A stretch of DNA of 64,000 nt, taken from assembly GCA_947492825.1 (NCBI GenBank), contig CANLNT010000001.1, positions 1,550,001 to 1,614,000 on the forward strand. The letters run 5' to 3'. Below are positions 2,678 through 52,551 of the stretch, in pieces (within the stretch, counting starts at the first letter, position 1; each line of letters opens with the position of its first letter). Position numbers and translations under genes: made by a program. The stretch is from an uncultured Paracoccaceae bacterium (GTDB lineage: Bacteria; Pseudomonadota; Alphaproteobacteria; Rhodobacterales; Rhodobacteraceae). The notes beneath the pieces were generated by a model. That model had not been told where the DNA came from, did not search any database, and was given only the letters and a program-made list of their open reading frames with translations.

Positions 2678-4144
2678 CTAGCCCTCGAACTGATCCGCGA
2701 TCAACCTGTTCAGCGCCGCCACGCCCCAGCCCGTCGCCCCACCGGGGGCCAGCGCCGTGCCGCTTTTGATATGCGCCACACCGGCGATATCCAGATGGCA
2801 CCACGGCATATCGTCCTTCACGAATCGTTGCAGGAATTGTGCCGCCGTGATCGACCCCGCAGGCCGCCCACCTGTGTTCTTGATATCGGCAATCCTGCTC
2901 TTGATCAGCTTGTCATAGCCCGCGCCCAAAGGCAGCCGCCACGCGCCTTCGCCTTCGGCCTCTGCGGCCTTCAGGAACTGCCCGGCCAGCGCGTCATCGT
3001 TGCTGAAAACCCCTGCGTTTTCATGGCCCAGCGCGATGATGACTGCCCCGGTCAGCGTCGCAAGGTTGATCATGCCCTTGGGCTTGAACCGCTCTTGCGC
3101 GTACCACAGCACGTCCGCCAGCACCAAACGCCCCTCGGCGTCGGTGTTGATGATCTCGATCGTGGTGCCCGACATCGCAGTCACCACATCACCGGGACGT
3201 GTTGCGGTACCGCTTGGCATGTTCTCGACCAGCCCCACCAGCCCGACCACATTGGCGCGGGCTTTGCGCAGTGCCAGCGTGCGCATCACCCCTGCCACCA
3301 CACCGGCCCCGCCCATATCCATCGTCATATCTTCCATGCCAGCGGCGGGCTTCAGGCTGATGCCACCGGTGTCAAAGACCACCCCCTTGCCGACAAGCGC
3401 GAACGGGTCCTCATCCCCGCCCCCGCGCCACTGCATGACCACCACCTTTGACGGGCTGGCAGAGCCTTGCCCGACACTCAGCAATGACCGCATCCCCAAC
3501 TTTTGCAGATCAGGCTCTTCAAGGATTTCGACCTCCAGCCCCAATTCCTGCATTGCGGCCAGCCGGGCGGCAAAGTCATCGGTGGTCAGCACATTCGCAG
3601 GTTCATTGGTCAGATCGCGGGTGAAAAATACACCCTCAGCGACGGCCATGCCAGTGCGCGCTGCCACGGCCACGCCTTCGGGTTTGGACACCATCAGCGT
3701 CACCCGCCCCTTGGGATCACTATCTTTCGATTTGTGAACGTCAAAGTCATAGGCGCGCAACGCGATGCCCAGCGCCACCTCTTCGGCGCGGCCCAAGGCA
3801 CCTGCAACAACACACAACCCCGCCTGCCCCAGCGCCTTGCCCAAGGCCGCACCCGCCTTGCGTGCTGCGGCCACATCCGGGCGCTTGGCCAGCTTGACCA
3901 CCAACACCGCCTCTGCCGCCATGCCCGCAGGAAAACCCATGCGCAGCACGTCACCTGTGCCTGCCTTCTCGAACCGCTCGCTTTCAACCAGGCGCGCCAA
4001 TGCCTTGCGGGTCAATGTGTTCACCTTGCGCGCACCGGCATCCAGCTTGCCGTCGGGGGTCACAAAGACCGCCACCAGCCCGGACAGATCGCCCAGCGCA
4101 TCCAGATCAACGGCCTCAATGCGGATATCGACAGGTGTGGTCAT
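2678..4144 (-). CDS. pepA: leucyl aminopeptidase (M17)
   Basis: A 488-residue M17 metallopeptidase. It shows the signature NTDAEGRLVLAD with metal ligands Asp and Glu, the catalytic-region VGKGVVFDTGGISLKP, and the C-terminal DIAG and GATGWG segments. It removes N-terminal residues from peptides in the cytosol as a hexamer. It diverges from lptF, and the 113-bp gap must hold both promoters. Together with holC it forms a two-gene unit. Confidence 0.96.
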   Translation of the reverse strand: MTTPVDIRIEAVDLDALGDLSGLVAVFVTPDGKLDAGARKVNTLTRKALARLVESERFEKAGTGDVLRMGFPAGMAAEAVLVVKLAKRPDVAAARKAGAALGKALGQAGLCVVAGALGRAEEVALGIALRAYDFDVHKSKDSDPKGRVTLMVSKPEGVAVAARTGMAVAEGVFFTRDLTNEPANVLTTDDFAARLAAMQELGLEVEILEEPDLQKLGMRSLLSVGQGSASPSKVVVMQWRGGGDEDPFALVGKGVVFDTGGISLKPAAGMEDMTMDMGGAGVVAGVMRTLALRKARANVVGLVGLVENMPSGTATRPGDVVTAMSGTTIEIINTDAEGRLVLADVLWYAQERFKPKGMINLATLTGAVIIALGHENAGVFSNDDALAGQFLKAAEAEGEGAWRLPLGAGYDKLIKSRIADIKNTGGRPAGSITAAQFLQRFVKDDMPWCHLDIAGVAHIKSGTALAPGGATGWGVAALNRLIADQFEG

Positions 4145-4257
4145 GGATGCAGCCTCTTGATTGGTTCGGTCTGCCCCAATCCCTAGCGGTCCCCCGCCGC
4201 AATGACCAGTTTGCAGTTTTGTCCGGCACCCGCATGCGCTAGTTTGCGGGCAAAAGA

Positions 4258-5397
4258 ATGGGGTGCGGGCGTTTGCCGCGATTTGACCGATACTTGCTGG
4301 CGCAACTGATGATGCTATTTGGCTTCTTCAGCCTTGTGCTTGTGATGGTCTACTGGATCAATCAGGCGGTGCGGCTCTTTGACCAACTGATCGCTGATGG
4401 CCAGTCCTTTGGCGTGTTTCTGGAATTCTCCGCCCTGTCCCTACCCGGTGTGATCCGCCTTGCTCTGCCGCTCGCTGCCTTTGCCGCCTCCGTCTACGTC
4501 ACCAACCGGATGAGCACCGAATCCGAGCTGGTTGTCGTGCAAGCCACCGGCTATTCACCGTGGCGCATGGCCCGTCCGGTTTTGGTCTTCGGGCTGATCG
4601 TGGCGGCGCTGATGTCGGTTCTGATGCATCTGCTGGTGCCGCTCTCCAGCGGGCAACTCAATGACCGCCGGGCCGAAATCGCCCAGAATGTGACGGCCCG
4701 CATCCTGACAGAGGGGCAGTTTCTTGAACCCGCCCCCGGCATCACCGTCTATATCCGCGAGATCACCCCGGCGGGCGAGCTGCGTGATGTGTTCCTGTCC
4801 GACCTGCGCGACCCCGCGGCAGAGGTGACCTATACCGCCGCACAGGCCTATCTGGTGCGCGCCGCCGATGACGCCCAGCTTGTGATGGTCGACGGGCTGA
4901 CCCAAACCCTGCGCACCGGCACCGGTCGGCTTTTTACCACCTCGTTTGACGACTTTGCCTACAACATCGGCGAGATGATCGCCGTCACCCCCAATGACAA
5001 CCGCACCGCGCGCGAGCTGATGACATGGGAACTTTTGGCCCCCACCCCCGCGCTTGAGGCGGAAACGGGCCGCACCGCAGCGCAGCTTGTGGCCGACGCC
5101 CATGACCGTATCTCTCAATCGCTCTTGGGCACCGTCGCGGCCCTTCTGGGATTCGCCGCGCTGATCGTGGGCGGGTTCAGCCGCTTCGGTGTTTGGCGGC
5201 AGATCGTTGGTGCCATCTTTTTGATCATCGTGATCAAGGCGCTGGAAACGACGGGACTGAACATCGCGCGCACCACTCCGTCGCTGTGGTTCGCCAGCTA
5301 TCTGGCCGTGGCCGCAGGGGCTGTAATCATCACTGTGCTGCTATTCCTCGCCACGCGCCCGTTTCTTTTCAAACGCAAACCGGGGGCGGTCGCATGA
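4258..5397 (+). CDS. lptF: LPS export ABC transporter permease LptF
   Basis: A 379-residue inner-membrane permease with three N-terminal helices, a periplasmic beta-jellyroll region (about residues 130-270) and three C-terminal helices. LptF and LptG with LptB drive lipopolysaccharide from the inner membrane to the LptA/D bridge. The family core begins at RFDRYLLAQLM, so the ATG at 4258 or the TTG at 4273 could be the start. It overlaps lptG by four bases (ATGA), which indicates coupling. Confidence 0.94.
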   Translation: MGCGRLPRFDRYLLAQLMMLFGFFSLVLVMVYWINQAVRLFDQLIADGQSFGVFLEFSALSLPGVIRLALPLAAFAASVYVTNRMSTESELVVVQATGYSPWRMARPVLVFGLIVAALMSVLMHLLVPLSSGQLNDRRAEIAQNVTARILTEGQFLEPAPGITVYIREITPAGELRDVFLSDLRDPAAEVTYTAAQAYLVRAADDAQLVMVDGLTQTLRTGTGRLFTTSFDDFAYNIGEMIAVTPNDNRTARELMTWELLAPTPALEAETGRTAAQLVADAHDRISQSLLGTVAALLGFAALIVGGFSRFGVWRQIVGAIFLIIVIKALETTGLNIARTTPSLWFASYLAVAAGAVIITVLLFLATRPFLFKRKPGAVA

Positions 5398-41125: not shown

Positions 41126-41848
41126 TCAAAGCCAATCTTGCGGCGCAATCAACGGTCGGAAATAGGCAATCGGTCGCGGTGCTGCGCCATCCCCCCAAGG
41201 GGCCACGCCGTGGATCAGATGCCGGTGCAGCAGCGTCGCTTCGCCCATACGGGCGGGCAGCGCGACCCGCGCGCAGGTTTTAAAAACTTCGCGCCGCGCG
41301 TCTTGATAGATCTCGGTCACATCCACGTCGCCCCAGCTCGCCGGGTCAATCCCGTCAAAGGCACGGGCGAAAGCCGCTTGCATGATCTTGTGCGACCCGC
41401 GCCAGACCACCAGCGGGCTATCCGCCGCGTCAGCCAGCGGTAGCCCAAGGATAAACCCATGCGGTTCTCGCAGATGTCTGCGACGCGCTGATCCCTCAGG
41501 CAGTAACCCATCCATGTGTGCAGCGTCGCGATTGCGTCGGAACCGGTGCGCGGTCTCGCTTTCATCAGTGTCTTTCTGCGGGTAGCCCGGATAGACGATG
41601 GACAGTTGGGCGCGGTGCCATGTGGCGGGCGGGGTGACCAAAGAGGTCCATGGCCCGTCCAATGGAACGCCGTCTATTGCGCCATCTTTGGTGTTAGGCA
41701 GCGCGTCAACGCCGACAAACCACGTCCCTCCGTGGCGTTTCTCGCTTCGATCAACCCGGTGCGCAGCCTTGGCAGCAGCCCTTGCCCACTGGTCGACACG
41801 CGGGTCTTGCCCGAAGTGAACACACCCGTCTGCCGCCCAATCTACCAC
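41126..41848 (-). CDS. putative 2-oxoglutarate/Fe(II) (phytanoyl-CoA-type) dioxygenase
   Basis: A 240-residue protein starting at a GTG (VVDWAADGCVHFGQD) that overlaps the upstream tauE-like gene's stop. A facial-triad pattern is visible: HMD in DAAHMDGLLPEG, a distal His in LLHRHLIHGVAPW, and an Arg in PRPIAYFRP. WRGSHKIMQ is also typical of phytanoyl-CoA-type oxygenases. The substrate is unknown. It converges with the WYL regulator, three bases apart. Confidence 0.75.
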   Translation of the reverse strand: MVDWAADGCVHFGQDPRVDQWARAAAKAAHRVDRSEKRHGGTWFVGVDALPNTKDGAIDGVPLDGPWTSLVTPPATWHRAQLSIVYPGYPQKDTDESETAHRFRRNRDAAHMDGLLPEGSARRRHLREPHGFILGLPLADAADSPLVVWRGSHKIMQAAFARAFDGIDPASWGDVDVTEIYQDARREVFKTCARVALPARMGEATLLHRHLIHGVAPWGDGAAPRPIAYFRPLIAPQDWL

Positions 41849-42660
41849 CCGACTGCCTTGCGCAGCATGTTCAGCGCGACAAGGATCAGGAACACACCAA
41901 ACACCCGCTTGAGCGGCCCCGCGTCCAAGCGGTGCGCCAATGCCGCCCCCCACGGCGCTGTGACCAGAGTCATCGCGATCACCAACACGAATGCAACAAG
42001 GTTAACTGATCCAAATGTCAGCGGCGGGGCCACGGCGATCGGCGTCATCAGAAACCCGATGACCGCAGGCACAGCGATGATCACACCAAACCCTGCTGCT
42101 GTTGCCACAGCACGGTGAATCGGCACGCTGTAAAGGCTCATCACCGGCACTCCAAAGGACCCGCCGCCTATGCCCATCAGCACTGACAGAAACCCCAGGA
42201 CGGGCGACAGGACCAACCGCATGACCCCTTGCGGCATGGCCGCGCCCAAGCGCCAGCCCGCTTTGCCGAAAGTCATATACAGCCCAACGATCACAGCGAG
42301 CATCCCAAAAATCGCCTGAAGCGCGCCAGACCGAAGCGCTGCCGCCGTCACCACCCCCAAAACAGCGCCGACCACAATCCCGGGCGCCCAGCTTTTCAGT
42401 ATGTCCCAGTCCACCGCGCCCTTTTTGTTGTGCGACAGGACCGAACGGATTGAGGTGACGATGATCGTCGCCAGCGAGGTGGCAAGGCAAAGCTGCATCA
42501 GTTGCGGGCTGTCAAAGCCCAGCACACTAAAGGCATAGAAAAACGCAGGCACCAACACGATACCGCCACCGACACCCAAAAGCCCCGCCAGCACGCCCGC
42601 AAAGGCCCCAATCAGCAGGATCAGCGCAGCCATGCCGGCCAGCAAGCCAAAGTCTTCCAT
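41842..42660 (-). CDS. TauE/SafE family sulfite/organosulfonate exporter
   Basis: A 272-residue membrane protein with about eight helices and the TauE/SafE repeats (GVLAGLLGVGGGIVLVPAF and FLSVLMGIGGGSFGVPVM). The family exports sulfite, sulfoacetate or related anions. The ATG at 42660 overlaps the dusA stop (TGATG). It lies about 1 kb from the SsuD-like monooxygenase cluster and could dispose of sulfite from it. Confidence 0.88.
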   Translation of the reverse strand: MEDFGLLAGMAALILLIGAFAGVLAGLLGVGGGIVLVPAFFYAFSVLGFDSPQLMQLCLATSLATIIVTSIRSVLSHNKKGAVDWDILKSWAPGIVVGAVLGVVTAAALRSGALQAIFGMLAVIVGLYMTFGKAGWRLGAAMPQGVMRLVLSPVLGFLSVLMGIGGGSFGVPVMSLYSVPIHRAVATAAGFGVIIAVPAVIGFLMTPIAVAPPLTFGSVNLVAFVLVIAMTLVTAPWGAALAHRLDAGPLKRVFGVFLILVALNMLRKAVGW

Positions 42661-43652
42661 CAAGCGGCCTTTTCTGTGACGTGACCCAGTGCTTTCAGCA
42701 CAACATCCGGTCCTGCACCGTCACGATGCGATTCCTCTGACAGCGTCCGCCGCCATCCACGCGCTCCGGGGCGGCCTTGAAAAAGGCCCAGCATGTGACG
42801 GGTGACATGATGCAGGCGGCCGCCGCTGGCGATATGGTCCGCGATATAGGGCAGCATCAGGTGCACCACGTCTTCCGCGGACCGGTCCAGACCGCCGCCA
42901 AAGATACGACGATCTGCGTCCAGCAACACGCTGGCCGGGTTGTGATAAGCCGCGCGCCCGATCATCACGCCATCGAGGCCGCCGTCCAAGAATTCTTCTG
43001 CAACCTCAAGAGTTTCGACACCGCCGTTAATGCTGATATGCAGGTGTGGAAAGGTCGCCTTCATCTGTCGCACAAGGTCATAATCCAAGGGCGGGATATC
43101 GCGGTTTTCCTTGGGGCTAAGGCCCTGAAGCCAGGCCTTGCGCGCATGGATCGCAAAGCGATCAACCCCAGCGGCACTGACCCGCGCAATAAAGTCCGGT
43201 AGCACGTGCTGCGGATCCTGATCGTCAACACCGATCCGGCATTTGACCGTCACGGGCACCGAAACTGCCGCGCGTATCGCCGCGACACAATCTGCCACCA
43301 GCACTGGGCTTTCCATCAAGACCGCACCAAAGGACCCCGATTGCACCCGATCAGATGGACAGCCGCAGTTGAGATTGACCTCATCATAGCCGAACCCTTC
43401 GCAAATCCGCGCAGCCTCGGCCAGTTGTGCGGGGTTCGATCCGCCCAGCTGTACAGCAACGGGGTGTTCTGTGGCATCAAAGCCCAGCAACCTGTCGCGG
43501 TCGCCGTGGATCACCGCAGGTGCGGTGACCATTTCGGTATAAAGCAACGCGTGCCGGGTCATGGACCGATGCAGCACCCGGCAGTGCCGGTCCGTCCAAT
43601 CCATCATCGGGGCCACCGAAAGGCGCGCGTTATGTGCCACAACATCGTTCAT
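42660..43652 (-). CDS. dusA: tRNA-dihydrouridine synthase A
   Basis: A 330-residue FMN enzyme reducing U20/U20a in the tRNA D-loop. It begins RLSVAPMMDWTDRHCRVLHR and has the catalytic-Cys motif NLNCGCPSDRVQ, IHARKAWLQGLSPKENR and NGGVETLE. It is coupled to the TauE-like gene. Confidence 0.94.
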   Translation of the reverse strand: MNDVVAHNARLSVAPMMDWTDRHCRVLHRSMTRHALLYTEMVTAPAVIHGDRDRLLGFDATEHPVAVQLGGSNPAQLAEAARICEGFGYDEVNLNCGCPSDRVQSGSFGAVLMESPVLVADCVAAIRAAVSVPVTVKCRIGVDDQDPQHVLPDFIARVSAAGVDRFAIHARKAWLQGLSPKENRDIPPLDYDLVRQMKATFPHLHISINGGVETLEVAEEFLDGGLDGVMIGRAAYHNPASVLLDADRRIFGGGLDRSAEDVVHLMLPYIADHIASGGRLHHVTRHMLGLFQGRPGARGWRRTLSEESHRDGAGPDVVLKALGHVTEKAA

Positions 43653-43720: not shown

Positions 43721-44809
43721 CTAAAGCAACACCGCCTGCCCCGTCGCCGCGCTTTCCTGCGCCGCAAGGCCCATCGCTACCGCGCGCGCACCGTCGTCCA
43801 CCGTCACTTCCACGGTACCCTCCCCCCGGATCACAGCGTTAAAGCGCTGATGCTGGTAAAAGGTCGACCCGTTGTGATCGCCAGCTTCCAAAAGGGCGGG
43901 ATCAACCGGGACTTCGCTGACAATCGGCCCTTTGGGTGCGCGGGGGCTGATCACCAATTGCGGCACAGGTGCGGGGCCAAGCAATTGCGGCCAGAACCTG
44001 CCCGGCCCCGGCACCAACGCCTCAATCTTACCCTTGGGACCCACGGCGCTGATTTCTTCCTGATACTTTGAGCCTTCCGCAAACATGCACAATTCCAGCA
44101 TTGCGCGTTTGCCGCCTTCGAAATCCAGAATGACATAGCCATTGTCCCAGATATCCGGCACCCGACCGCCATAATCCTCGTCCTTGTGGTTCAGCGTCTG
44201 CCCGGCACTGGCCATGACCCGCACAGGCTCTGCCTTGAGGATCAGCCGCATCAGATCAAAGAAATGGCAGCACTTTTCCACCAGCGTCCCGCCGGTATTG
44301 GCGTTAAACCGGTTCCAGTCGCCAATCTTGGGCAGAAACGGAAAGCGATGCTCGCGCACCGTCAGCATCGAAATGCCGCCTGTTGCCGCCTCGACCTGAT
44401 TGATCAGCGCCTGGATCGGCGGCATATAGCGGTATTCCATCGCGACCCAGACCGGCGCGTCATAGCTATTGGCAAAATCCGCCACCTTCGCGGCATCCGC
44501 CGGATCGGTATAAAGAGGCTTTTCGCATAGGATTGGCAAGGTTCTTTTGGCGGCAATCTGGTGCAATTGGTCCACATGCAGGAAATTGGGGCTGACGATG
44601 ACAACTGCGTCCAGCTCGGGGTGATCCATCAACGCATCGACGCTTTCGGCCACGGTCGCGTTCTGCGCCAGCACCGCCGCTGATTGCGCCAGTTCATCCA
44701 CCGGATCATAGACAACGCTGACCCGCCCCTGCGGCAACAGGTTGATATTCTGGATGTGCTCGCGGCCCATCATACCACAGCCAATCAGGCCATAGTTCAC
44801 CATCTTCAT
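43721..44809 (-). CDS. Gfo/Idh/MocA family oxidoreductase or NAD+-dependent glycosidase
   Basis: A 362-residue protein with an N-terminal Rossmann fold (YGLIGCGMMGREH), the EKP motif (LCEKPLYTD) and the C-terminal beta-sheet domain containing NTGGTLVEKCCHFFDLMRL. Members oxidise sugars or inositols, or act as NAD+-dependent glycosidases (GH109 and the sulfoquinovosidase family GH188). Next to a GntR regulator and an SsuD-like monooxygenase cluster, sulfoquinovosidase is an attractive guess. Sequence alone does not decide. Confidence 0.85.
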   Translation of the reverse strand: MKMVNYGLIGCGMMGREHIQNINLLPQGRVSVVYDPVDELAQSAAVLAQNATVAESVDALMDHPELDAVVIVSPNFLHVDQLHQIAAKRTLPILCEKPLYTDPADAAKVADFANSYDAPVWVAMEYRYMPPIQALINQVEAATGGISMLTVREHRFPFLPKIGDWNRFNANTGGTLVEKCCHFFDLMRLILKAEPVRVMASAGQTLNHKDEDYGGRVPDIWDNGYVILDFEGGKRAMLELCMFAEGSKYQEEISAVGPKGKIEALVPGPGRFWPQLLGPAPVPQLVISPRAPKGPIVSEVPVDPALLEAGDHNGSTFYQHQRFNAVIRGEGTVEVTVDDGARAVAMGLAAQESAATGQAVLL

Positions 44810-44815
44810 CGGTCG

Positions 44816-45523
44816 TTACCCTTTTCCCATGCGCGACACATAGCGCGCCTTCGTGTTGTCAAACCATGTGCGCGAAAATTCAACCGGCGTGCCATCTGCT
44901 GTCCAGCCAATCCGCTCAATATATCCGACGGCAAAGCCTGCGCGTAAGTGAAAGCTGTCAGGTGTCCAGCGCGGCAGTTGCGCGACACCAATCCGATCCT
45001 CAACGCTGGCGATCACAACACCCAGTTCATCGCGGTAAAATTCGTACAGGGAATCGGATAAATCTCCAACCGTGACCGCCGCACGTTGCGCACCGTCCAG
45101 CCAGATTTCTTCCAGTGCAATCAGGTCGCCATCGAGGCGTCGCAAGCGACGTATGCGGTGCCCTTCGCTGTCCGGCCCAAAGGCCGGTGCATCCTTGGGC
45201 TTGGGCATCCGTTCGACCGACAAGACGTCTGCGGTCGGCAAACCACCACCGCGCACCTTTTCGAGCCGGAAAAACGCATAGACGCTTTTGACATCCGGTT
45301 TATGCCTGACATAGTTGCCTGAACCTTGCACCCGATCCAAAAGCCCCTTGGATTCGAGATCAGCAAGGGATTTGCGCAGCGTTCCAACAGAGATGCCAAG
45401 CTCTGCCGCCATCTCGCGCTCGGGCGGCAATCGCGCGCCGTCGGCAAGATGCCCAGCTGCGATTTCACGGATCAGCATCTCGCTGACGGCGACGTATTTG
45501 GGCAGCGCCGAAGCCGTTGCCAT
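44816..45523 (-). CDS. GntR/HutC-family transcriptional regulator
   Basis: A 235-residue regulator with an N-terminal GntR winged helix (LPPEREMAAELGISVGTLRKSLADLESKGLL) and a UTRA effector domain (RRLDGDLIALEEIWLDG ... FSRTWFDNTKARYV). UTRA domains sense small ligands such as phosphosugars. It lies six bases upstream of the Gfo/Idh gene and diverges from the monooxygenase operon, so it likely controls both. Confidence 0.9.
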   Translation of the reverse strand: MATASALPKYVAVSEMLIREIAAGHLADGARLPPEREMAAELGISVGTLRKSLADLESKGLLDRVQGSGNYVRHKPDVKSVYAFFRLEKVRGGGLPTADVLSVERMPKPKDAPAFGPDSEGHRIRRLRRLDGDLIALEEIWLDGAQRAAVTVGDLSDSLYEFYRDELGVVIASVEDRIGVAQLPRWTPDSFHLRAGFAVGYIERIGWTADGTPVEFSRTWFDNTKARYVSRMGKG

Positions 45524-45561
45524 CCCGCTGACCTCCCTGACTGCGGAAAATTGATACACTA

Positions 45562-45590
45562 TTGTTTCACTCAAAAACCCGTGCTAGGCA
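45562..45590 (+). promoter_or_regulatory. candidate promoter of the monooxygenase operon
   Basis: TTGTTT (45562-45567), a 17-base spacer and TAGGCA (45585-45590) lie 38 bases before the monooxygenase ATG, in the 105-bp divergent gap. TTGA and TCAA half-sites flank the -35 region and may be part of an operator. Confidence 0.4.
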
Positions 45591-45628
45591 AGTCCCAAGT
45601 TGAGATTCTTTTGGGGGAAGCCGACACC

Positions 45629-46789
45629 ATGGATCAAGTGGTCCCAGTCACAAGCGCAGACCTAGACGCCGCAGAGGTATCATGGTTTTCCGCTTTGTGC
45701 TCAGATGATTACCAGTTCCTCGGCGTGCCAGACGGCGCGCTGCGATCATCCTGGGAGCACTGCCGCGACATCGCACTTGAGGCCGAAAGGCAAGGCTTTC
45801 GCAATATCCTTGCGCCGTCTTCTTATCAGGTTGGTCAGGACACCTTGTCCTTTGTGGCCGGCATGGCCCCACTGACCGAAAGGATGAATTTTCTGGCGGC
45901 AATTCGCTGCGGCGAAGTGCAACCAATCATGCTCGCGCGGACCATCGCCACGCTTGACCACATGCTCAAGGGGCGGCTGACGCTGAACGTGATCTCGTCA
46001 GATTTTCCGGGCGAGGTGGCAGACAGCGCCTACCGCTACAAGCGCAGCCATGAGGTGGTCGAGATCCTGCGCAAGTGCTGGACTCAGGATGAAGTCAGCT
46101 ATGACGGCGAGATCTACCAGATCTCCAAGCTCAGCACCGATCCTGCACGCCCCTATCAGCAAAACGGTGGCCCGCTACTGTACTTTGGTGGCTACTCACC
46201 CGCCGCGATGGAGCTTTGCGGGGCGCAATGTGACGTCTACCTGATGTGGCCGGAGGTTCAGGAGCAGCTGGCCCAGCGCATGAAGGACGTGCACGCACGC
46301 GCGGCCGCGCATGGCCGCACGCTGGATTACGGTCTGCGGGTGCACATGATCGTGCGCGACACGGAACAAGAAGCCAAGGAATACGCCGATTACATCGCCT
46401 CCAAGCTGGATGATGAATACGGCAAGCTGATCCGCGACCGCGCCCATGACAGCATCAGCCTTGGCGTGGCCCATCAGGCCCGCGCGCGCGAGCTGGCGGA
46501 CAAATACGGCTACATCGAACCCGGCCTGTGGACCGGTGTCGGGCGCGCCCGCTCTGGCTGTGGCGCCGCCCTTGTGGGGTCGACCGATCAGATCCTGTCG
46601 AAAATTGAGGCTTACAAAAAGATGGGCATCCGTGCTTTCATCTTTTCAGGCTACCCGCATATCGACGAGGCCAAGCATTTTGGCCAACGCGTCATGCCCG
46701 AACTGAAAACCTGTTCTTTGCCGCACGCTCATGGGCGTGTCCCGGCAGAAACACCCGCTACGCCTTTGGGCACAGGAGAGCGTCGCTAA
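45629..46789 (+). CDS. SsuD-like flavin-dependent (LLM class) monooxygenase; candidate sulfoquinovose monooxygenase
   Basis: A 386-residue bacterial-luciferase-fold enzyme of the alkanesulfonate monooxygenase group. It has NILAPSSYQVGQDTLSF, AIRCGEVQPIMLARTIATLDHML, PLLYFGGYSPAAMEL and GSTDQILSKIEAYKKMGI with a terminal FSGYPH. Such enzymes use FMNH2 to split a C-S bond, releasing sulfite and an aldehyde. The next two genes encode an aldo/keto reductase and a flavin reductase, the set found in the Agrobacterium sulfo-SMO pathway (SmoC/B/A). The ATG at 45629 excludes an upstream open stretch antisense to the regulator. Confidence 0.85.
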   Translation: MDQVVPVTSADLDAAEVSWFSALCSDDYQFLGVPDGALRSSWEHCRDIALEAERQGFRNILAPSSYQVGQDTLSFVAGMAPLTERMNFLAAIRCGEVQPIMLARTIATLDHMLKGRLTLNVISSDFPGEVADSAYRYKRSHEVVEILRKCWTQDEVSYDGEIYQISKLSTDPARPYQQNGGPLLYFGGYSPAAMELCGAQCDVYLMWPEVQEQLAQRMKDVHARAAAHGRTLDYGLRVHMIVRDTEQEAKEYADYIASKLDDEYGKLIRDRAHDSISLGVAHQARARELADKYGYIEPGLWTGVGRARSGCGAALVGSTDQILSKIEAYKKMGIRAFIFSGYPHIDEAKHFGQRVMPELKTCSLPHAHGRVPAETPATPLGTGERR

Positions 46790-47686
46790 ATGGATCGCGT
46801 CCAGATTACACCAAACCTTGATTTCAGTCGCATCGTCTATGGCATGTGGCGACTGGCAGAGGCAGATGACACGTCAGCCGCCCACGTGCAGGCCAAGGTC
46901 GAGGCCTGCCTAGCCCAAGGCATCACAACGATGGATCAGGCCGACATCTATGGCGGCTATGAAGCGGAAGAAGTGTTTGGGGCAGCCCTGAAAGCCGCCC
47001 CTGCCCTGCGCGACCAGATCGAGATCGTGACAAAATGCGATATCGTGGCCCCTGCAGGTCGCTATGCTGATGCGCGGGTCAAATACTACGACACGTCTGC
47101 GGCACACATTCGTGCCTCGGTCGATCATTCGCTGCGGCTGATGAACATCGACCACATCGACATGCTGCTGGTGCACCGCCCCGATCCTTTCATGGATCAT
47201 CTCGAAACCGGCGCTGTTCTGGACGAAGTTGTGGCCGCGGGCAAGGTCCGCGCAGTTGGCGTGTCGAATTTCAAATTGCACGATTGGACCCTGTTGCAAT
47301 CGGGCATGAAAACCCAACTTGCGACCAACCAGATCGAACTGAGCGTCACCGCGCATCAGGGCTTTACGAACGGTGATGTGGCCTACCTGCAGGAACGTGC
47401 CAAGCCAATCATGGCGTGGTCACCCTTGGGCGGCGGCAGCCTTGTCACGGGTGAAGGCGATGCCGCAGTGCGCACCACCATGACCAAGGTTGCACAAGAC
47501 AACGGCGTCGATCTTGGCGCGGTGGCTGTCGCGTGGCTGCTGGCGCATCCAGCCAATATCATGCCAGTCATGGGGACAAATAACCTCAAGCGCATCAATG
47601 CCTTGTCAGACGCAATGAAGGTCCGAATGGATCGCCAGACCTGGTACGAAATCTACACCGCAGCGCTCGGTCAGGAGGTCCCGTAA
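46790..47686 (+). CDS. aldo/keto reductase (candidate 6-oxo-glucose reductase)
   Basis: A 298-residue (beta/alpha)8 NAD(P)H reductase with the catalytic tetrad Asp, Tyr, Lys, His in MDQADIYGGYEAEEVFG, IVTKCD and LLVHRPDP. It resembles the YdhF group. It starts right after the monooxygenase stop, preceded by CAGGAGAG. In sulfo-SMO an aldo/keto reductase (SmoB) reduces the monooxygenase product to glucose; this role is inferred from context. Confidence 0.88.
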   Translation: MDRVQITPNLDFSRIVYGMWRLAEADDTSAAHVQAKVEACLAQGITTMDQADIYGGYEAEEVFGAALKAAPALRDQIEIVTKCDIVAPAGRYADARVKYYDTSAAHIRASVDHSLRLMNIDHIDMLLVHRPDPFMDHLETGAVLDEVVAAGKVRAVGVSNFKLHDWTLLQSGMKTQLATNQIELSVTAHQGFTNGDVAYLQERAKPIMAWSPLGGGSLVTGEGDAAVRTTMTKVAQDNGVDLGAVAVAWLLAHPANIMPVMGTNNLKRINALSDAMKVRMDRQTWYEIYTAALGQEVP

Positions 47687-48192
47687 TGGACGCAGGCACA
47701 ATCGCCACGTTTGACCCGTCAACCGATGCCGACAGTTTTCGCGGCGCGCTCGGGACCTTTGTGACCGGCGTCACCGTGGTCACAACGGACAGTCCCGAAG
47801 GCCCGGTGGCGATTGTCGCCAACAGCTTTGCCTCAGTCTCGCTTGATCCGCCGCTGGTGCTTTGGTCGCCTGCGAAGTCGTCCAAACGGTTCGAACATTT
47901 TGCAGGCTCGCGCCGCTTTGCAATCCATGTCCTTTCTGCTGATCAGCGCGACATTTGCGCCGCAATCGTCAAATCCAAGACAGCGATCTCAGAGGTGCCA
48001 ACACAGCTTAGTCACTGTGGCATGCCGCTGATCGACGGCGCGCTTGCTACGTTTGAATGCAATTTGCACACGACCCACGACGCCGGTGATCATGTCATCA
48101 TCGTGGGCCTCGTCACCAAAGCCCATCACACCGACGGGGAACCGCTTGTGTTCCATGCCGGCAAATACGGAACGTTCAACACCACTCCCTAA
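47686..48192 (+). CDS. flavin reductase domain protein
   Basis: A 168-residue FMN-binding split-barrel reductase (FRGALGTFVTGVTVVTT, ANSFASVSLDPPLVLWS, and a C-terminal HAGKYGTF). It would supply reduced FMN to the monooxygenase. It overlaps the aldo/keto reductase gene (TAATG) and has AGGAGG for ribosome binding. Confidence 0.93.
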   Translation: MDAGTIATFDPSTDADSFRGALGTFVTGVTVVTTDSPEGPVAIVANSFASVSLDPPLVLWSPAKSSKRFEHFAGSRRFAIHVLSADQRDICAAIVKSKTAISEVPTQLSHCGMPLIDGALATFECNLHTTHDAGDHVIIVGLVTKAHHTDGEPLVFHAGKYGTFNTTP

Positions 48193-48227
48193 GCCTTTCT
48201 TTTGAATAGAAATATGCCCGGGGGTTT

Positions 48228-48306
48228 TGGGGGCTGGCCCCCAAGATAAAACGGAGCGTTTGGGGGCTAGCCCCCACCAAAAAATGAAGCGACCGCGCTA
48301 GCGGTC
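48228..48306. repeat. three hairpins between the enzyme genes and the TRAP genes
   Basis: TGGGGGCTGGCCCCCA (48228-48243) and TGGGGGCTAGCCCCCA (48261-48276) are near-identical perfect palindromes 33 bases apart. GACCGC-gcta-GCGGTC (48291-48306) follows. They lie in the only sizeable gap of the operon and may cap the enzyme mRNA or set different expression of the transporter. Confidence 0.7.
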
Positions 48307-48331
48307 ACCATATAACAGGGGAGGAGCCGCA

Positions 48332-48931
48332 ATGTCGGTCCTGTTTGGGGTCCTTTGGCCCTTAGAGCGGTTCAATACCGCAATACTCGCCATTGGGCGG
48401 TTCATCTCGGTTGCGGCCCTCGCGATCATGGTCTGCTTTATTCTGGGGCAGGTTTTCTTCCGTTACGTGCTCAACGACGCGCCCAACTGGACCGAAGAAG
48501 GGGCGCGCTTTGGGATGCTGTGGATGACCGGGCTGATGGCGCCCGTTGCCTACCGTATGGGCGGCTTTGTTGCGATCGACATGCTTGAGCGCGCCCTACC
48601 CCGCCTGCTGGCGGGCATCCTGTCGCTGGTTCTGATGGCGATCACCATGTGGGTGCTCTTCATTTTCTGGGAACGCGGGTTGAACAACCACCTCGACACG
48701 CTCTCGGGCCGTGGTTGTTCGTCCACACTGCGCTGGCCCTTCGGGATCGAGATCGGCAAATGCGGCGAGAAATTTCAGAACCGGTTCCAATACGCATCGC
48801 TTTGGGTGGGTGTGAACCTGCTGATCCTGGTCAATATCGAACTCTTCATCCGACAACTGATCACGCTGGGGGGCCGTGGCGATGGCCTGACCTCCTTTAC
48901 CTCTGACGAAGAAATTGCGGGGTCGTCCTGA
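48332..48931 (+). CDS. TRAP transporter small permease (DctQ)
   Basis: A 199-residue four-helix protein (FISVAALAIMVCFILGQVFFRY, PNWTEEGARFGMLWMTG). It carries an unusually long loop between helices 3 and 4 (about residues 118-160) containing two cysteines. It starts at an ATG after GGGGAGGAG. It forms the membrane unit with DctM. Confidence 0.88.
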   Translation: MSVLFGVLWPLERFNTAILAIGRFISVAALAIMVCFILGQVFFRYVLNDAPNWTEEGARFGMLWMTGLMAPVAYRMGGFVAIDMLERALPRLLAGILSLVLMAITMWVLFIFWERGLNNHLDTLSGRGCSSTLRWPFGIEIGKCGEKFQNRFQYASLWVGVNLLILVNIELFIRQLITLGGRGDGLTSFTSDEEIAGSS

Positions 48932-50421
48932 TGCTTCTTTGGTTCCTTCCGCTTTTCCTTGTCTTGATCATGGTCGGCCTGCCGGTGGTCTTTGCGCTGC
49001 TGGCATCCCCAATCGCACTGATCCTGATGGAAGGCGACACACGTAACGTTGTCGCAGGCCTTTATCGCAACCTTTACAACGGCATGGACAGCTTTCCGCT
49101 GATGGCCTTGCCGTTCTTCATGCTCGCAGGCGAAGTCATGAACCGGGGCGGCATCACCGTGCGCCTCGTTGAATTCTCCCAAGCCTTCATGGGCCACCTG
49201 AGGGGGGGATTGGCGCACGTCAACATCCTCTCCTCCATTCTCTTTGCGGGGCTTTCGGGTTCTGCCGTGGCGGATACATCCGCGCTGGGATCAACCCTGA
49301 TCCCCGCGATGGAAAAGAACGGCTATACACGCCGGTTTGCCGCCGCGATTACCGCCGCATCCTCCGTTATCGGCCCGATCATCCCGCCCTCGGGCATCAT
49401 GATCATCTACGCCTATGTCATGGGCGAAAGCGTCGCGGCGTTGTTCCTTGCGGGCATTGTCCCCGGCATCATGGTCGGCGTCGGCCTAATGGTCATGGTC
49501 CGGTTGTTGGCTGACCGCTATGACCTGCCCAAAGCCGAACGGATTGTCACCAAGAACCAGACAATCACACCGGTGGAATACTGGGTCAGCTTTGCGCTGC
49601 TGCGCCTCAACCTCGCCTTCGTCCTTTACGCCCTTGGCGCATTGGTGATCCGGATTGCAGGCACCGAAACCTCCCTGCCCGCTGGCTGGACCACCTTGAT
49701 CATGCTGATCCCCGCGCACTTTATCCTGATGGGATATCGCAAACGGTGCAGCCATGATTTCCGCATGGTGGCGAAAAAGGCCGTGGCCCCACTGCAGACG
49801 CCCATCATCATTCTGGGCGGTATCCTCGTGGGCATCATGACCCCGACAGAGGCCTCGGCCATGGCGGTGTTCTACGCGCTGATCGTGTCTTTCTTTGTGT
49901 TGCGCTCAATGAATGGCCGTGACCTGTGGCAGGTGCTGACTAAATCTGCACTTTCCACCTCTGCGGTTCTGCTGCTGGTGGGGGCCGCCGTCAGCTTCAA
50001 AACCGTGGTCTCGCTGTCCTATGCGCCGCAGATCATGTCGGACTACATCCTGTCGCTTTCCGAGAACCCGCTGATCCTTTTGTTCCTGATCAACATCCTG
50101 CTCTTCATTGTGGGCATGTTCTTGGATGCAGGGCCTGCGATCATCATTCTGGGGCCAATCCTGGGGCCGATCTTTGTCGACCTTGGCGTGCACCCCGTCC
50201 ACTTTGCCATCATCATGTCGGTCAACCTGACCGTCGGTCTGGCAACTCCGCCCATGGGCTTGGTCTTATTCGTGGCGAGTACCGTCTCGGGCGAAAAGGT
50301 CGAAACGATTGCCAAAGCAATCCTGCCCTTCCTTGCGGTCGAGATTTTCGTGATCTTCCTGATTACCTACGTCCCGGCCATCTCAATGACGATTCCGCGC
50401 TTGACGGGGTTCGTTCAATAA
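48931..50421 (+). CDS. TRAP transporter large permease (DctM)
   Basis: A 496-residue ion-coupled permease with about 12 helices and typical segments (FMLAGEVMNRGGI, SGSAVADTSALGSTLIPAM, IIPPSGIMIIYA, LTVGLATPPMGLVLF). An extra stretch around residues 185-275 enlarges it over the usual 430 residues. The ATG overlaps the dctQ stop. Confidence 0.92.
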   Translation: MLLWFLPLFLVLIMVGLPVVFALLASPIALILMEGDTRNVVAGLYRNLYNGMDSFPLMALPFFMLAGEVMNRGGITVRLVEFSQAFMGHLRGGLAHVNILSSILFAGLSGSAVADTSALGSTLIPAMEKNGYTRRFAAAITAASSVIGPIIPPSGIMIIYAYVMGESVAALFLAGIVPGIMVGVGLMVMVRLLADRYDLPKAERIVTKNQTITPVEYWVSFALLRLNLAFVLYALGALVIRIAGTETSLPAGWTTLIMLIPAHFILMGYRKRCSHDFRMVAKKAVAPLQTPIIILGGILVGIMTPTEASAMAVFYALIVSFFVLRSMNGRDLWQVLTKSALSTSAVLLLVGAAVSFKTVVSLSYAPQIMSDYILSLSENPLILLFLINILLFIVGMFLDAGPAIIILGPILGPIFVDLGVHPVHFAIIMSVNLTVGLATPPMGLVLFVASTVSGEKVETIAKAILPFLAVEIFVIFLITYVPAISMTIPRLTGFVQ

Positions 50422-50466
50422 AGGGACAGTCGTCCCCATAACCGACCAATGAACAGGGAGAGAATA

Positions 50467-51531
50467 ATGCTCAAAGGTCTACTGAAAGGCGCGCTTGCCG
50501 CCACGCTGTTTGCCGGGGCCTCTGCGGCCTATGCCGATGGCCATCAAGAGTTCACGATCCGCGCGACCGCGAACTCGAACGAAAACGACGAGGACTATGA
50601 CGGTCTGGTCGTCTTCAAGAACTACGTCGAAGCTGCCTCAAACGGCCGCATCGGTGTGGAGCTTTTCATCGGCACGCAACTGTGCGCCACAGGTGCGGAA
50701 TGCATCGAAGGTGTCTCTGAGGGTTCGATCGACGTTTACGTGTCCACCTCTGGTGGTGCGGCAGGCATCTTCCCTTATGTGCAGGTTCTTGATCTGCCCT
50801 ACCTGATGGCTGACGACCGGATCGCCGAAGAAGTGCTGACCAGCGACTTTGTCCGCACCATGCGCGACATGGCCCTGGCTGACAGTGGCGATTCCGTACG
50901 CCTGATGACCATCGGTAACACCGGTGGCTGGCGTAACTTTGCCAACACGCAGCGTCGTGTGGCGATGCCATCCGATATGGAAGGCCTGAAGATCCGGACT
51001 GTTGTGGCAGACCTGCCGCAGGAATTGGTGCGCGCATTGGGTGCCTCTCCGACTCCAATCCCGTGGCCCGAACTGTTCACATCGTTCCAGACCGGCGTTG
51101 TTGAAGGGTCCAAGAACGGCATCACCGACATCATGGGCATGAAATTCCCGGATGCGGGCCTGCAGTACGTGACCCTCGACGGTCACGCCTACATGGGTGC
51201 GCTTTGGTGGATGAGCAACGAAAACTTCATGGCGATGCCAGAGGACCTGCGCCGCGTTGTGGTCGACGGTTTCTCTCAGCTGCAGCAGGCCACTTTCGCC
51301 TCGCCCAAGCGCAAGTCGATTGAAGCCTATGAGGCCTTCGTCGCGGGTGGTGGTGACCTTTACGTCCCAACCCCCGAAGAGAAAGCCGCATTCGCAGAAG
51401 CCGCTGCCCCTGTGCAGGACTGGTTCCGCGCAAATGTTGACGGTGGTGACGCGATCCTTGACGCGCTGATCGCCGCTGTGGCCGATGCCGAAGCCGCACT
51501 GGCTGATGACTACGCCAAAGACCTAAACTAA
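50467..51531 (+). CDS. TRAP transporter substrate-binding protein (DctP)
   Basis: A 354-residue periplasmic protein with a signal peptide ending SAAYA. It has the family core MPSDMEGLKIRTV and PIPWPELFTSFQTGVVEGSKNGI. The conserved Arg in LKIRTV normally grips the ligand's acid group, so the ligand is probably an organic acid, compatible with a sulfonate. The ATG at 50467 follows AGGGAGAGA. A strong terminator follows, closing the operon. Confidence 0.93.
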   Translation: MLKGLLKGALAATLFAGASAAYADGHQEFTIRATANSNENDEDYDGLVVFKNYVEAASNGRIGVELFIGTQLCATGAECIEGVSEGSIDVYVSTSGGAAGIFPYVQVLDLPYLMADDRIAEEVLTSDFVRTMRDMALADSGDSVRLMTIGNTGGWRNFANTQRRVAMPSDMEGLKIRTVVADLPQELVRALGASPTPIPWPELFTSFQTGVVEGSKNGITDIMGMKFPDAGLQYVTLDGHAYMGALWWMSNENFMAMPEDLRRVVVDGFSQLQQATFASPKRKSIEAYEAFVAGGGDLYVPTPEEKAAFAEAAAPVQDWFRANVDGGDAILDALIAAVADAEAALADDYAKDLN

Positions 51532-51553: not shown

Positions 51554-51581
51554 GGGCCGTCCTTCGGGGCGGCCCTTTTTT
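51554..51581 (+). terminator. intrinsic terminator of the monooxygenase/TRAP operon
   Basis: The stem GGGCCGTCC-ttcg-GGGCGGCCC (one G-U-type step) followed by TTTTTT begins 22 bases past the DctP stop. Confidence 0.9.
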
Positions 51582-51702
51582 GTGCAAAGGGGTGGCCTTG
51601 CGCACCATGTTTTTGCTCAAGCATCCCCTTGTTCGCCGCCATCGCCTTGCGTCACGCTCTGCGTGTGCTAGCTCTTTGTCACCACACAACAGGAGAGCCG
51701 CC

Positions 51703-52551
51703 ATGACCACCTATACCCCGCCCAAAGTCTGGACATGGGATGCCGAGAATGGCGGCGAATGGGCCAAGCTGAACCGCCCAATCGCAGGTGCAACACACGA
51801 CAAAGATTTGCCCGTTGGTGACCACCCGCTGCAGCTCCATTCCCTGGCGACCCCCAATGGCGTCAAAGTCACGCTGATGCTGGAAGAGCTGTTGGCCGCA
51901 GGCCATGCCGCCGAATACGACGCCTGGATCATCAAGATCACCGAAGGCGATCAGTTCGGATCGGGTTTTGTCGACATCAACCCCAATTCCAAGATTCCAG
52001 CGTTGTTTGACCGGGAAACCGGCCAGCGCGTGTTTGAAAGCGGTGCGATCCTGCTTTATCTGGCCGAGAAGTTTGACGCGTTCCTGCCCGCAAGTGGTGC
52101 GGCCCGGACCGAGGCGCTGAACTGGCTCTTTTGGCTGCAAGGCTCTGCCCCCTATCTGGGTGGCGGCTTTGGTCACTTCTACGCTTATGCACCCGAGAAA
52201 TTCGAATACCCGATCAACCGCTTCGCAATGGAGGCCAAGCGCCAGTTGGATGTGCTGGACAGGCATCTGGCCGACAACCGCTATCTGGCTGGTGACGACT
52301 ATACCATCGCCGACATGGCAACCGCCCCTTGGTATGGGCGCACGGTCATGGGTGCCAGCTATGACGCCGGTGACTTCCTGTCTGTGCATGAATACACCCA
52401 CGTGATCCGCTGGATGGATGAGATCTACAACCGCCCGGCCTATCAGCGTGGCATGATCGTCAATCGGTCCTGGGGCGAAGATTGGGAACAATGCCCCAAT
52501 CGCCACGCGGCCGCTGACATCGACGCGGTGCTGGCGAAAAAGCCCGACTAA
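51703..52551 (+). CDS. yghU: YghU-type glutathione S-transferase
   Basis: A 282-residue GST close to E. coli YghU, with YTPPKVWTWD at the start, the N-terminal thioredoxin fold (LHSLATPNGVKVTLMLEEL, NPNSKIPALFD) and the C-terminal RYLAGDDYTIADMAT domain. This Nu-class type acts as a disulfide-bond reductase/peroxidase. The ATG at 51703 follows AGGAGAG. It ends four bases inside the convergent SH3 gene. Confidence 0.92.
   Translation: MTTYTPPKVWTWDAENGGEWAKLNRPIAGATHDKDLPVGDHPLQLHSLATPNGVKVTLMLEELLAAGHAAEYDAWIIKITEGDQFGSGFVDINPNSKIPALFDRETGQRVFESGAILLYLAEKFDAFLPASGAARTEALNWLFWLQGSAPYLGGGFGHFYAYAPEKFEYPINRFAMEAKRQLDVLDRHLADNRYLAGDDYTIADMATAPWYGRTVMGASYDAGDFLSVHEYTHVIRWMDEIYNRPAYQRGMIVNRSWGEDWEQCPNRHAAADIDAVLAKKPD

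Follow-up and report, generated by a model that had tools for sequence, protein, structure and literature searches.

Plant and algal membranes contain the sulfur-bearing sugar sulfoquinovose (SQ), whose output is estimated at about 10 billion tons annually (PMC10755693). The sulfoquinovosidase of Agrobacterium is an enzyme of glycoside hydrolase family 31 (GH31). In Agrobacterium and Novosphingobium, the oxidative SQ monooxygenase route (sulfo-SMO, or sulfo-ASMO) is described as giving glucose and sulfite (PMC9594981, PMC12890257), and an ATP-binding cassette (ABC) transporter of SQ-glycerol was reported in Agrobacterium (PMC9594981). In marine Roseobacters, the near-universal presence of GH188 sulfoquinovosidases in sulfo-SMO clusters has already been reported (PMC10755693). 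Here we analyzed a 64,000-nucleotide stretch (hereafter the window) from an uncultured Paracoccaceae bacterium (contig CANLNT010000001.1, positions 1,550,001 to 1,614,000), in which positions 43721-51531 hold a cluster of eight genes. The predicted chemistry of its SmoC, SmoB and SmoA is the same as in Agrobacterium tumefaciens and Novosphingobium, and its enzymes are those of the Roseobacter clusters with sulfo-SMO and the GH188 enzyme SqgA. It differs from the Agrobacterium system in having genes for a tripartite ATP-independent periplasmic (TRAP) transporter instead of an ABC importer, which is absent from the cluster, and a sulfoquinovosidase of GH188, unlike the Agrobacterium enzyme. We consider it very probable that the cluster is a complete oxidative SQ operon, whose TRAP transporter imports SQ and probably SQ-glycerol.

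A preliminary description made from the nucleotide sequence alone had placed a monooxygenase, a reductase, a flavin reductase and a full TRAP transporter in one operon, divergent from a GntR regulator and a Gfo/Idh/MocA enzyme. When the gene frames were checked in the window and scanned against Pfam with the family cut-offs, all eight were found as open frames at the positions described, and their families were confirmed. The gene smoC (45629-46789, + strand; Bac_luciferase over the cut-off) encodes the predicted FMNH2-dependent SQ monooxygenase SmoC/SquD. A phmmer search of SmoC against the PDB sequences gave 7olf (744 bits) and 7oh2 (721 bits), followed by MsuD (7jv3, 213 bits) and SsuD (1m41, 202.5 bits). 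The PDB titles of 7oh2 and 7olf, which open with "Crystal structure of FMNH2-dependent monooxygenase", name the oxidative desulfurization of sulfoquinovose, and the same two entries were the top matches of the predicted SmoC structure (predicted local distance difference test, pLDDT, 74). In the SsuD equivalog model, SmoC reached 251 bits versus the 518 required. An SsuD or MsuD identity was therefore dropped, and by PDB sequence, structure and equivalog scores the protein groups with the SQ monooxygenases.

The adjacent smoB (46790-47686, + strand; Aldo_ket_red over the cut-off) encodes SmoB/SquF, an aldo/keto reductase predicted to convert 6-dehydroglucose to glucose. Its product groups with 7bby (415 bits, next family 216), which we take to be the Agrobacterium SmoB, the PDB molecule name showing only "Aryl-alcohol dehydrogenase". 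SmoA (47686-48192, + strand; Flavin_Reduct over the cut-off) was assigned at the family level as the flavin reductase that would supply reduced flavin. A published rule for sulfo-SMO places SmoB and SmoC inside a window of 10 open reading frames (PMC13372026), and here the two genes are adjacent. With SmoC, SmoB and the family-level SmoA all present, the island is, as judged from its predicted proteins, a full sulfo-SMO set with flavin reductase and GntR regulator. The SQ pathway proposed in the preliminary description is thus supported by the SmoC scores, the 7bby match and the GH188 enzyme described below.

The Gfo/Idh/MocA-fold protein is encoded on the opposite strand (43721-44809, - strand; GFO_IDH_MocA over the cut-off). 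Its PDB matches were 8zn9 (518 bits), 8qc3 and 8qc2 (378 and 375 bits), the next one scoring 69 bits; 8qc3 and 8qc2 are the GH188 sulfoquinovosidases ArSqgA and FlSqgA (PMC10755693). The contacts listed for GH188 comprise R166, L170 and K172 to the sulfonate, along with K107, Y136, E189, H193 and H321 (PMC10755693), and all eight are kept in the protein, as R155, L159, K161, K97, Y126, E178, H182 and H312. The scores and residues identify it as SqgA, a GH188 NAD-dependent sulfoquinovosidase, a role that had been missed when its presence was first noted; an inositol dehydrogenase identity was rejected in its favor (124 bits, cut-off 355). Since a GH31 search (PF01055) gave no match in the organism's own genome, with the control matching in 6 of 14 genomes, no candidate sulfoquinovosidase other than SqgA was found. 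It is taken as cytoplasmic because no signal peptide was seen by eye.

Downstream of smoA lie dctQ (48332-48931, TRAP small permease), dctM (48931-50421, TRAP large permease) and dctP (50449-51531, solute-binding protein and predicted SQ or SQ-glycoside receptor), all on the + strand, so that all three TRAP subunits are present, each over its Pfam cut-off. The smoC-smoB-smoA genes are tightly packed, SmoC stopping at 46789, SmoB starting at 46790 and SmoB and SmoA sharing one base; dctQMP are likewise packed. Between smoA and dctQ is a gap of 139 bases with a GC-rich hairpin pair.

The arrangement was compared in 80 loci, the best 80 of 220 relatives and hence biased to close kin. SmoB, SmoA and SqgA were each found on the expected side and strand in 79 of the 80 loci and GntR in 76, while DctM and DctP were present in 62 of the 74 loci with enough downstream DNA; chance would hardly produce this arrangement. 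Among the genera with the TRAP form are Loktanella, Yoonia, Octadecabacter, Pseudorhodobacter, Rhizobium, Peteryoungia and Pannonibacter. The earlier suggestion of a marine variant with TRAP in the place of ABC held for the exchange of importer; the TRAP form extends beyond Rhodobacterales, to Rhizobium, Peteryoungia and Pannonibacter, one of them root-nodule derived.

To follow the linkage of importer and pathway, 394 genomes of the family were searched with protein queries, at most 4 or 5 candidates being scored per genome, so that a rare miss is possible. SmoC (E<=1e-100) was found in 165 genomes and DctP (E<=1e-60) in 145, the latter at >=65% identity in 142 and at <=50% in three; matches in G317 and G326, which run over one TAA, were counted as found. 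SmoC and DctP at >=65% occurred together in 110 genomes, SmoC alone in 55, DctP alone in 32 and neither in 197 (Fisher p 2e-27, relatedness ignored). Where both places were listed, DctP lay 2,967-3,949 bases downstream of SmoC on the same strand in 95 of 102 pairs, the other seven being on different contigs.

The 32 loci with DctP alone were all fetched, as were the three more distant ones; frames in the fetched loci were picked mechanically, antisense frames included, and Pfam was run on representatives. An SQ-isomerase-like gene was present in 22 of the 32 (L111, L112, L114, L117-L121, L123, L125-L128, L130, L132-L136, L138, L140 and L142). A PfkB kinase accompanied it in every one of these loci; 21 of them also had a LacD-type aldolase, L118 being the exception, and 16 had GH188 (L130 being cut by the region end). 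The single NCBIfam match of the L130 isomerase was sulfoquinovose isomerase, at 252 bits and below the cut-off of 700. In 21 sister loci, the isomerase-like, kinase and aldolase genes stand together next to this TRAP subfamily, a combination that resembles sulfo-EMP2 (SqvD/SqiK/SqiA), a second, Embden-Meyerhof-Parnas (EMP)-type pathway absent from the window; a 2026 review places sulfo-EMP2 in Firmicutes only and EMP1/2 hybrids in Proteobacteria and Actinobacteria (PMC12890257). A di-haem cytochrome c peroxidase family gene adjoins TRAP in isomerase-type clusters (L130:11247-12992, the one representative scanned, and similar sister frames). PhyH-type dioxygenase genes lie by TRAP in L113 (636-1379), L129 (4997-5758), L118, L121 and L140, the last three of isomerase type.

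Seven further DctP-only loci held part of the SMO cluster (L115, L116, L122, L124, L131, L137 and L141), and L139 was a contig end. SmoC of L137 is cut by the contig end; the remaining six keep smoB, smoA or sqgA/gntR along with TRAP, smoC not lying in the fetched stretch. No replacement oxygenase was found near these smoC-less loci with the two queries tried, and a TauD-type replacement was set aside, as the dioxygenase query from L217 (see below) matched only L217 and L222 (33%) among all loci. The three distant family loci held an isomerase, a kinase and GH188 (L143), a kinase (L144) and nothing clear (L145). In a quick DctP tree of 94 rows, from which L041, L050, L067, L122, L139 and L141 were left out for length, the SMO and isomerase labels needed at least nine changes, and the strongly supported branches alone forced three (SMO) or four (isomerase). 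These gene contexts link the TRAP subfamily to predicted genes for SQ use by more than a single route. The re-pairing of one DctP subfamily with two pathways suggests a cargo upstream of both, namely SQ or its glycoside.

In surveys of the class (385 genomes) and the phylum (398 genomes), DctP at E<=1e-50 was found in 17 and 16 genomes, the own family included (the class match in G613, which runs over one TAA, being counted), and 20 regions were fetched (19 outside the family and L224 within), 8 at >=65% and 12 at 35-50% identity. Among the >=65% regions, L209, L211 and L224 were of SMO type, L206 and L210 of isomerase type, and L208 was a contig end. L217, from another class, held SqgA, GntR, SmoB and TRAP without SmoC, and a TauD-family dioxygenase gene (3778-4755) adjoins its SqgA; this region probably fits the SQ dioxygenase pathway (sulfo-SDO), with the TauD-family protein as candidate SQ dioxygenase. 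Among the 35-50% regions, L214 and L218 were of isomerase type, L212 held a kinase and an aldolase, and L221 and L222 were of sulfo-EMP type. L219 held a set resembling the Entner-Doudoroff genes, but its dehydratase qualifies as an L-arabinonate dehydratase, which leaves the sugar of this set uncertain, and no clear SQ set was seen in L205, L207, L215, L216, L220 and L223. In Photobacterium DA100 (L202, DctP 42-45%), the genes beside TRAP encode a sulfolactaldehyde 3-reductase (508 bits, cut-off 348), a kinase of the PfkB type, an aldolase of class II and an isomerase of the AGE family; in NCBIfam the isomerase scored best as D-mannose isomerase, below the cut-off. The link between TRAP and SQ genes is strong at >=65% identity, with exceptions, and fades below.

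The DctP structure was predicted with 40 sequences (pLDDT 79). Its top Foldseek match in the PDB was 8t9t, the apo form of the isethionate TRAP receptor IseP, at about 22% identity, many other TRAP receptors, those for sialic acid included, ranking close behind. IseP is described as holding the sulfonate by Arg156, Arg177 and Asn217, with Trp200 below (PMC11668362). DctP R162, R183, N223 and W206 align with these four residues, so that the Arg-Arg-Asn anchor and the Trp seen in IseP (8t9t, 8te9) stand at equivalent positions. R162, R183 and N223 were invariant in two alignments, one of 40 rows and one of 28 rows that sampled the two pathway types, W206 also being invariant in the latter, and most of the conserved receptor columns were common to the SMO and isomerase groups. 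In the predicted model, the anion anchor of DctP resembles that of a sulfonate receptor; the known cargo of IseP is a C2 sulfonate, whereas that predicted for DctP is a sulfonated hexose, likely SQ or SQ-glycerol. C79 and C85 of DctP were also invariant in both alignments, and IseP and 4p47 have residues other than Cys where these two align; a disulfide between them is possible.

In the pathway that we infer, the ion gradient-driven TRAP transporter, with DctP as receptor and DctQM as permease, would bring SQ and probably SQ-glycerol into the cytoplasm, where SqgA would cleave the glycoside with bound NAD+. SmoA would reduce flavin, and SmoC would use the reduced flavin and O2 to split the C-S bond into sulfite and 6-dehydroglucose, which SmoB would turn into glucose. 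The glucose could enter the Entner-Doudoroff route, Edd being found in the genome (934 bits, cut-off 708). A search of the genome for a Mo-co_dimer sulfite oxidase gave no PF03404 match; Soe-type enzymes were not sought. Beyond this organism, we lean toward viewing the DctPQM subfamily as a dedicated, pathway-independent importer of SQ and SQ-glycosides, re-paired with sulfo-SMO, sulfo-EMP2-like (22 loci), probably sulfo-SDO (L217) and, distantly, sulfo-EMP (L202, L221 and L222) genes.

Several observations weigh against assigning SQ and its glycoside to this transporter. Residues 1-30, 210-219 and 228-235 of DctP are weakly modelled, and 34 of the 91 inner branches of the DctP tree are weak. 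The Arg-Arg-Asn positions bind carboxylate in other TRAP receptors (PMC11668362), so the anchor allows a sulfonate and does not prove one. L113 and L129, among the DctP-only loci, show no recognised SQ enzyme, and the out-of-family L213 (78%) lacks SQ genes, its neighbors being of aromatic-ring type (HpcH aldolase, FAA hydrolase, glyoxalase-family, Aldedh and MarR). Furthermore, 55 of the 165 SmoC genomes lack this DctP. Forty of these were fetched, and an ABC importer lay directly downstream in at least 7 (L148, L149, L156, L157, L167, L168 and L171), the SBP_bac_1 receptor and BPD_transp_1 permease being recognised by Pfam in L156 and L157 and the remaining ABC loci by clustering. Several others had ABC genes further away, and in many neither ABC nor TRAP was seen in the stretch, importers of other types not being sought. 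With ABC, TRAP or neither near SmoC, the importer slot appears exchangeable, TRAP being one option of several.

The same SmoC genomes that manage without this DctP lend some weight to the possibility that the pathway is as proposed and TRAP imports free SQ only, the SqgA glycosides entering by another route. With HEPES and MES, which are larger sulfonates, IseP fails to close (PMC11668362), and TRAP receptors can thus be size-selective. However, SqgA was kept not only in nearly all of the 80 loci but also in 36 of the 40 fetched loci with SmoC and without DctP; as this enzyme is taken as cytoplasmic and is widely kept, the glycoside must enter the cell, and the window cluster holds no second importer. 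We therefore regard uptake of free SQ alone as possible but clearly the less probable reading. It is unlikely that TRAP has another cargo, such as a dicarboxylate or one of the C2/C3 sulfonates (isethionate, taurine and sulfolactate being examples), and was placed here by operon drift. The few near orthologues without SQ genes would fit such a cargo, the DctP name is merely generic on the annotated plasmids opened, and gut-bacterial TRAP systems have been proposed for taurine and sulfolactate (PMC10507020) and for isethionate (PMC6386719); against it stand the linkage to SMO genes in 95 of 102 checkable genomes, the separate linkage to SQ-isomerase clusters in 22, the sharing of most conserved receptor columns by both pathway groups, and the fact that sulfo-SMO yields no C2 or C3 sulfonate. 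An island for another alkanesulfonate, with a monooxygenase that shares the luciferase-like monooxygenase (LLM) fold and about 35% identity with MsuD and acts like SsuD or MsuD, is highly improbable in view of the 500-bit gap to the SQ monooxygenases, an SsuD model score at half of the cut-off, and the presence of SmoB and a GH188 sulfoquinovosidase alongside it, and the other organosulfonate substrate once allowed for is now unlikely.

The GntR/UTRA regulator (both domains over the Pfam cut-offs) is divergent, with SqgA, from the smo and TRAP genes; its listed frame is 44816-45574 on the - strand with a TTG start, and by eye the ATG at 45523 (44816-45523) is the likelier start. Pattern searches revealed a candidate operator, TTGATACACTATTGTTTCACTCAA, at 45551-45574 (+ strand) between the regulator and smoC. 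An operator-like pattern of the TTGATACACTATTG type was found ahead of smoC in 32 of 32 intergenic stretches (the window and 31 loci), with best matches of 2-5 mismatches to a hand-typed 15-base consensus and no shuffled control. It occurred once in the window, with 0 mismatches (chance mean 0.37 at <=2 mismatches), and once in the genome at <=2 mismatches (control 0). The exact pattern was present once each in 103 of 197 loci, some of which repeat one genome, and in none of L111-L145. The TTGATACACTATTG-type site is thus a natural candidate for the GntR operator, through which GntR would control the divergent promoters. In the smoA-dctQ gap, two GGGGGCTNGCCCCC palindromes (48229-48275, no strand assigned) form a strong predicted hairpin, no further site being found in the window at <=1 mismatch; the folding z-score was -3.0 for 48190-48334, and the hairpin may serve transcript stabilisation or attenuation.

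DctP also matched 12 plasmid records, and the whole set was found on five of the seven opened, from Ruegeria TM1040 (its megaplasmid), Paracoccus seriniphilus, Rhizobium SL42, Roseicitreum antarcticum and Roseivivax THAF40; the Qingshengfaniella plasmid held SmoC, GntR and TRAP, SmoB, SmoA and SqgA not being in the stretch, and the seventh was that of Photobacterium DA100, described above. On plasmids L198, L201 and L203, TRAP has downstream of it, directly in L201 and L203, a gene for a "putative sulfate exporter family transporter" that may export sulfite. In Ruegeria TM1040, the annotation also lists a cytochrome c peroxidase close to the SMO cluster. Beside the window cluster lie dusA (42660-43652) and a frame (41842-42663) that we take, by eye, to be TauE/SafE-like; the latter was set aside as sulfite exporter, since dusA intervenes and it adjoins the cluster only in part of the relatives. 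The downstream glutathione-dependent disulfide-bond oxidoreductase (51580-52551; 484 bits, cut-off 325) was excluded from the cluster.

The combination of sulfo-SMO with GH188 in Roseobacters is published, and the importer may be the new part. ABC transporters are named for SQ uptake (PMC12421959, 2025). PMC13372026, PMC12890257 and PMC9594981 do not use the word "TRAP" in their main text, and that of PMC10755693 has neither "TRAP" nor "transporter". PMC10507020 and PMC6386719 treat TRAP for other sulfonates, with SQ in the references only, and "trap" in PMC6278857 denotes a mass spectrometer. No link between TRAP and SQ was found in the literature searched, and an earlier mention may exist elsewhere; as far as that literature shows, no TRAP system had been proposed for a sulfonated sugar before DctPQM. 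If the proposal is true, a TRAP transporter shared across pathways would explain how many marine bacteria supply their GH188 enzyme with SQ-glycerol, and DctP at >=65% identity would serve as a genome marker for SQ use, whatever the downstream pathway.

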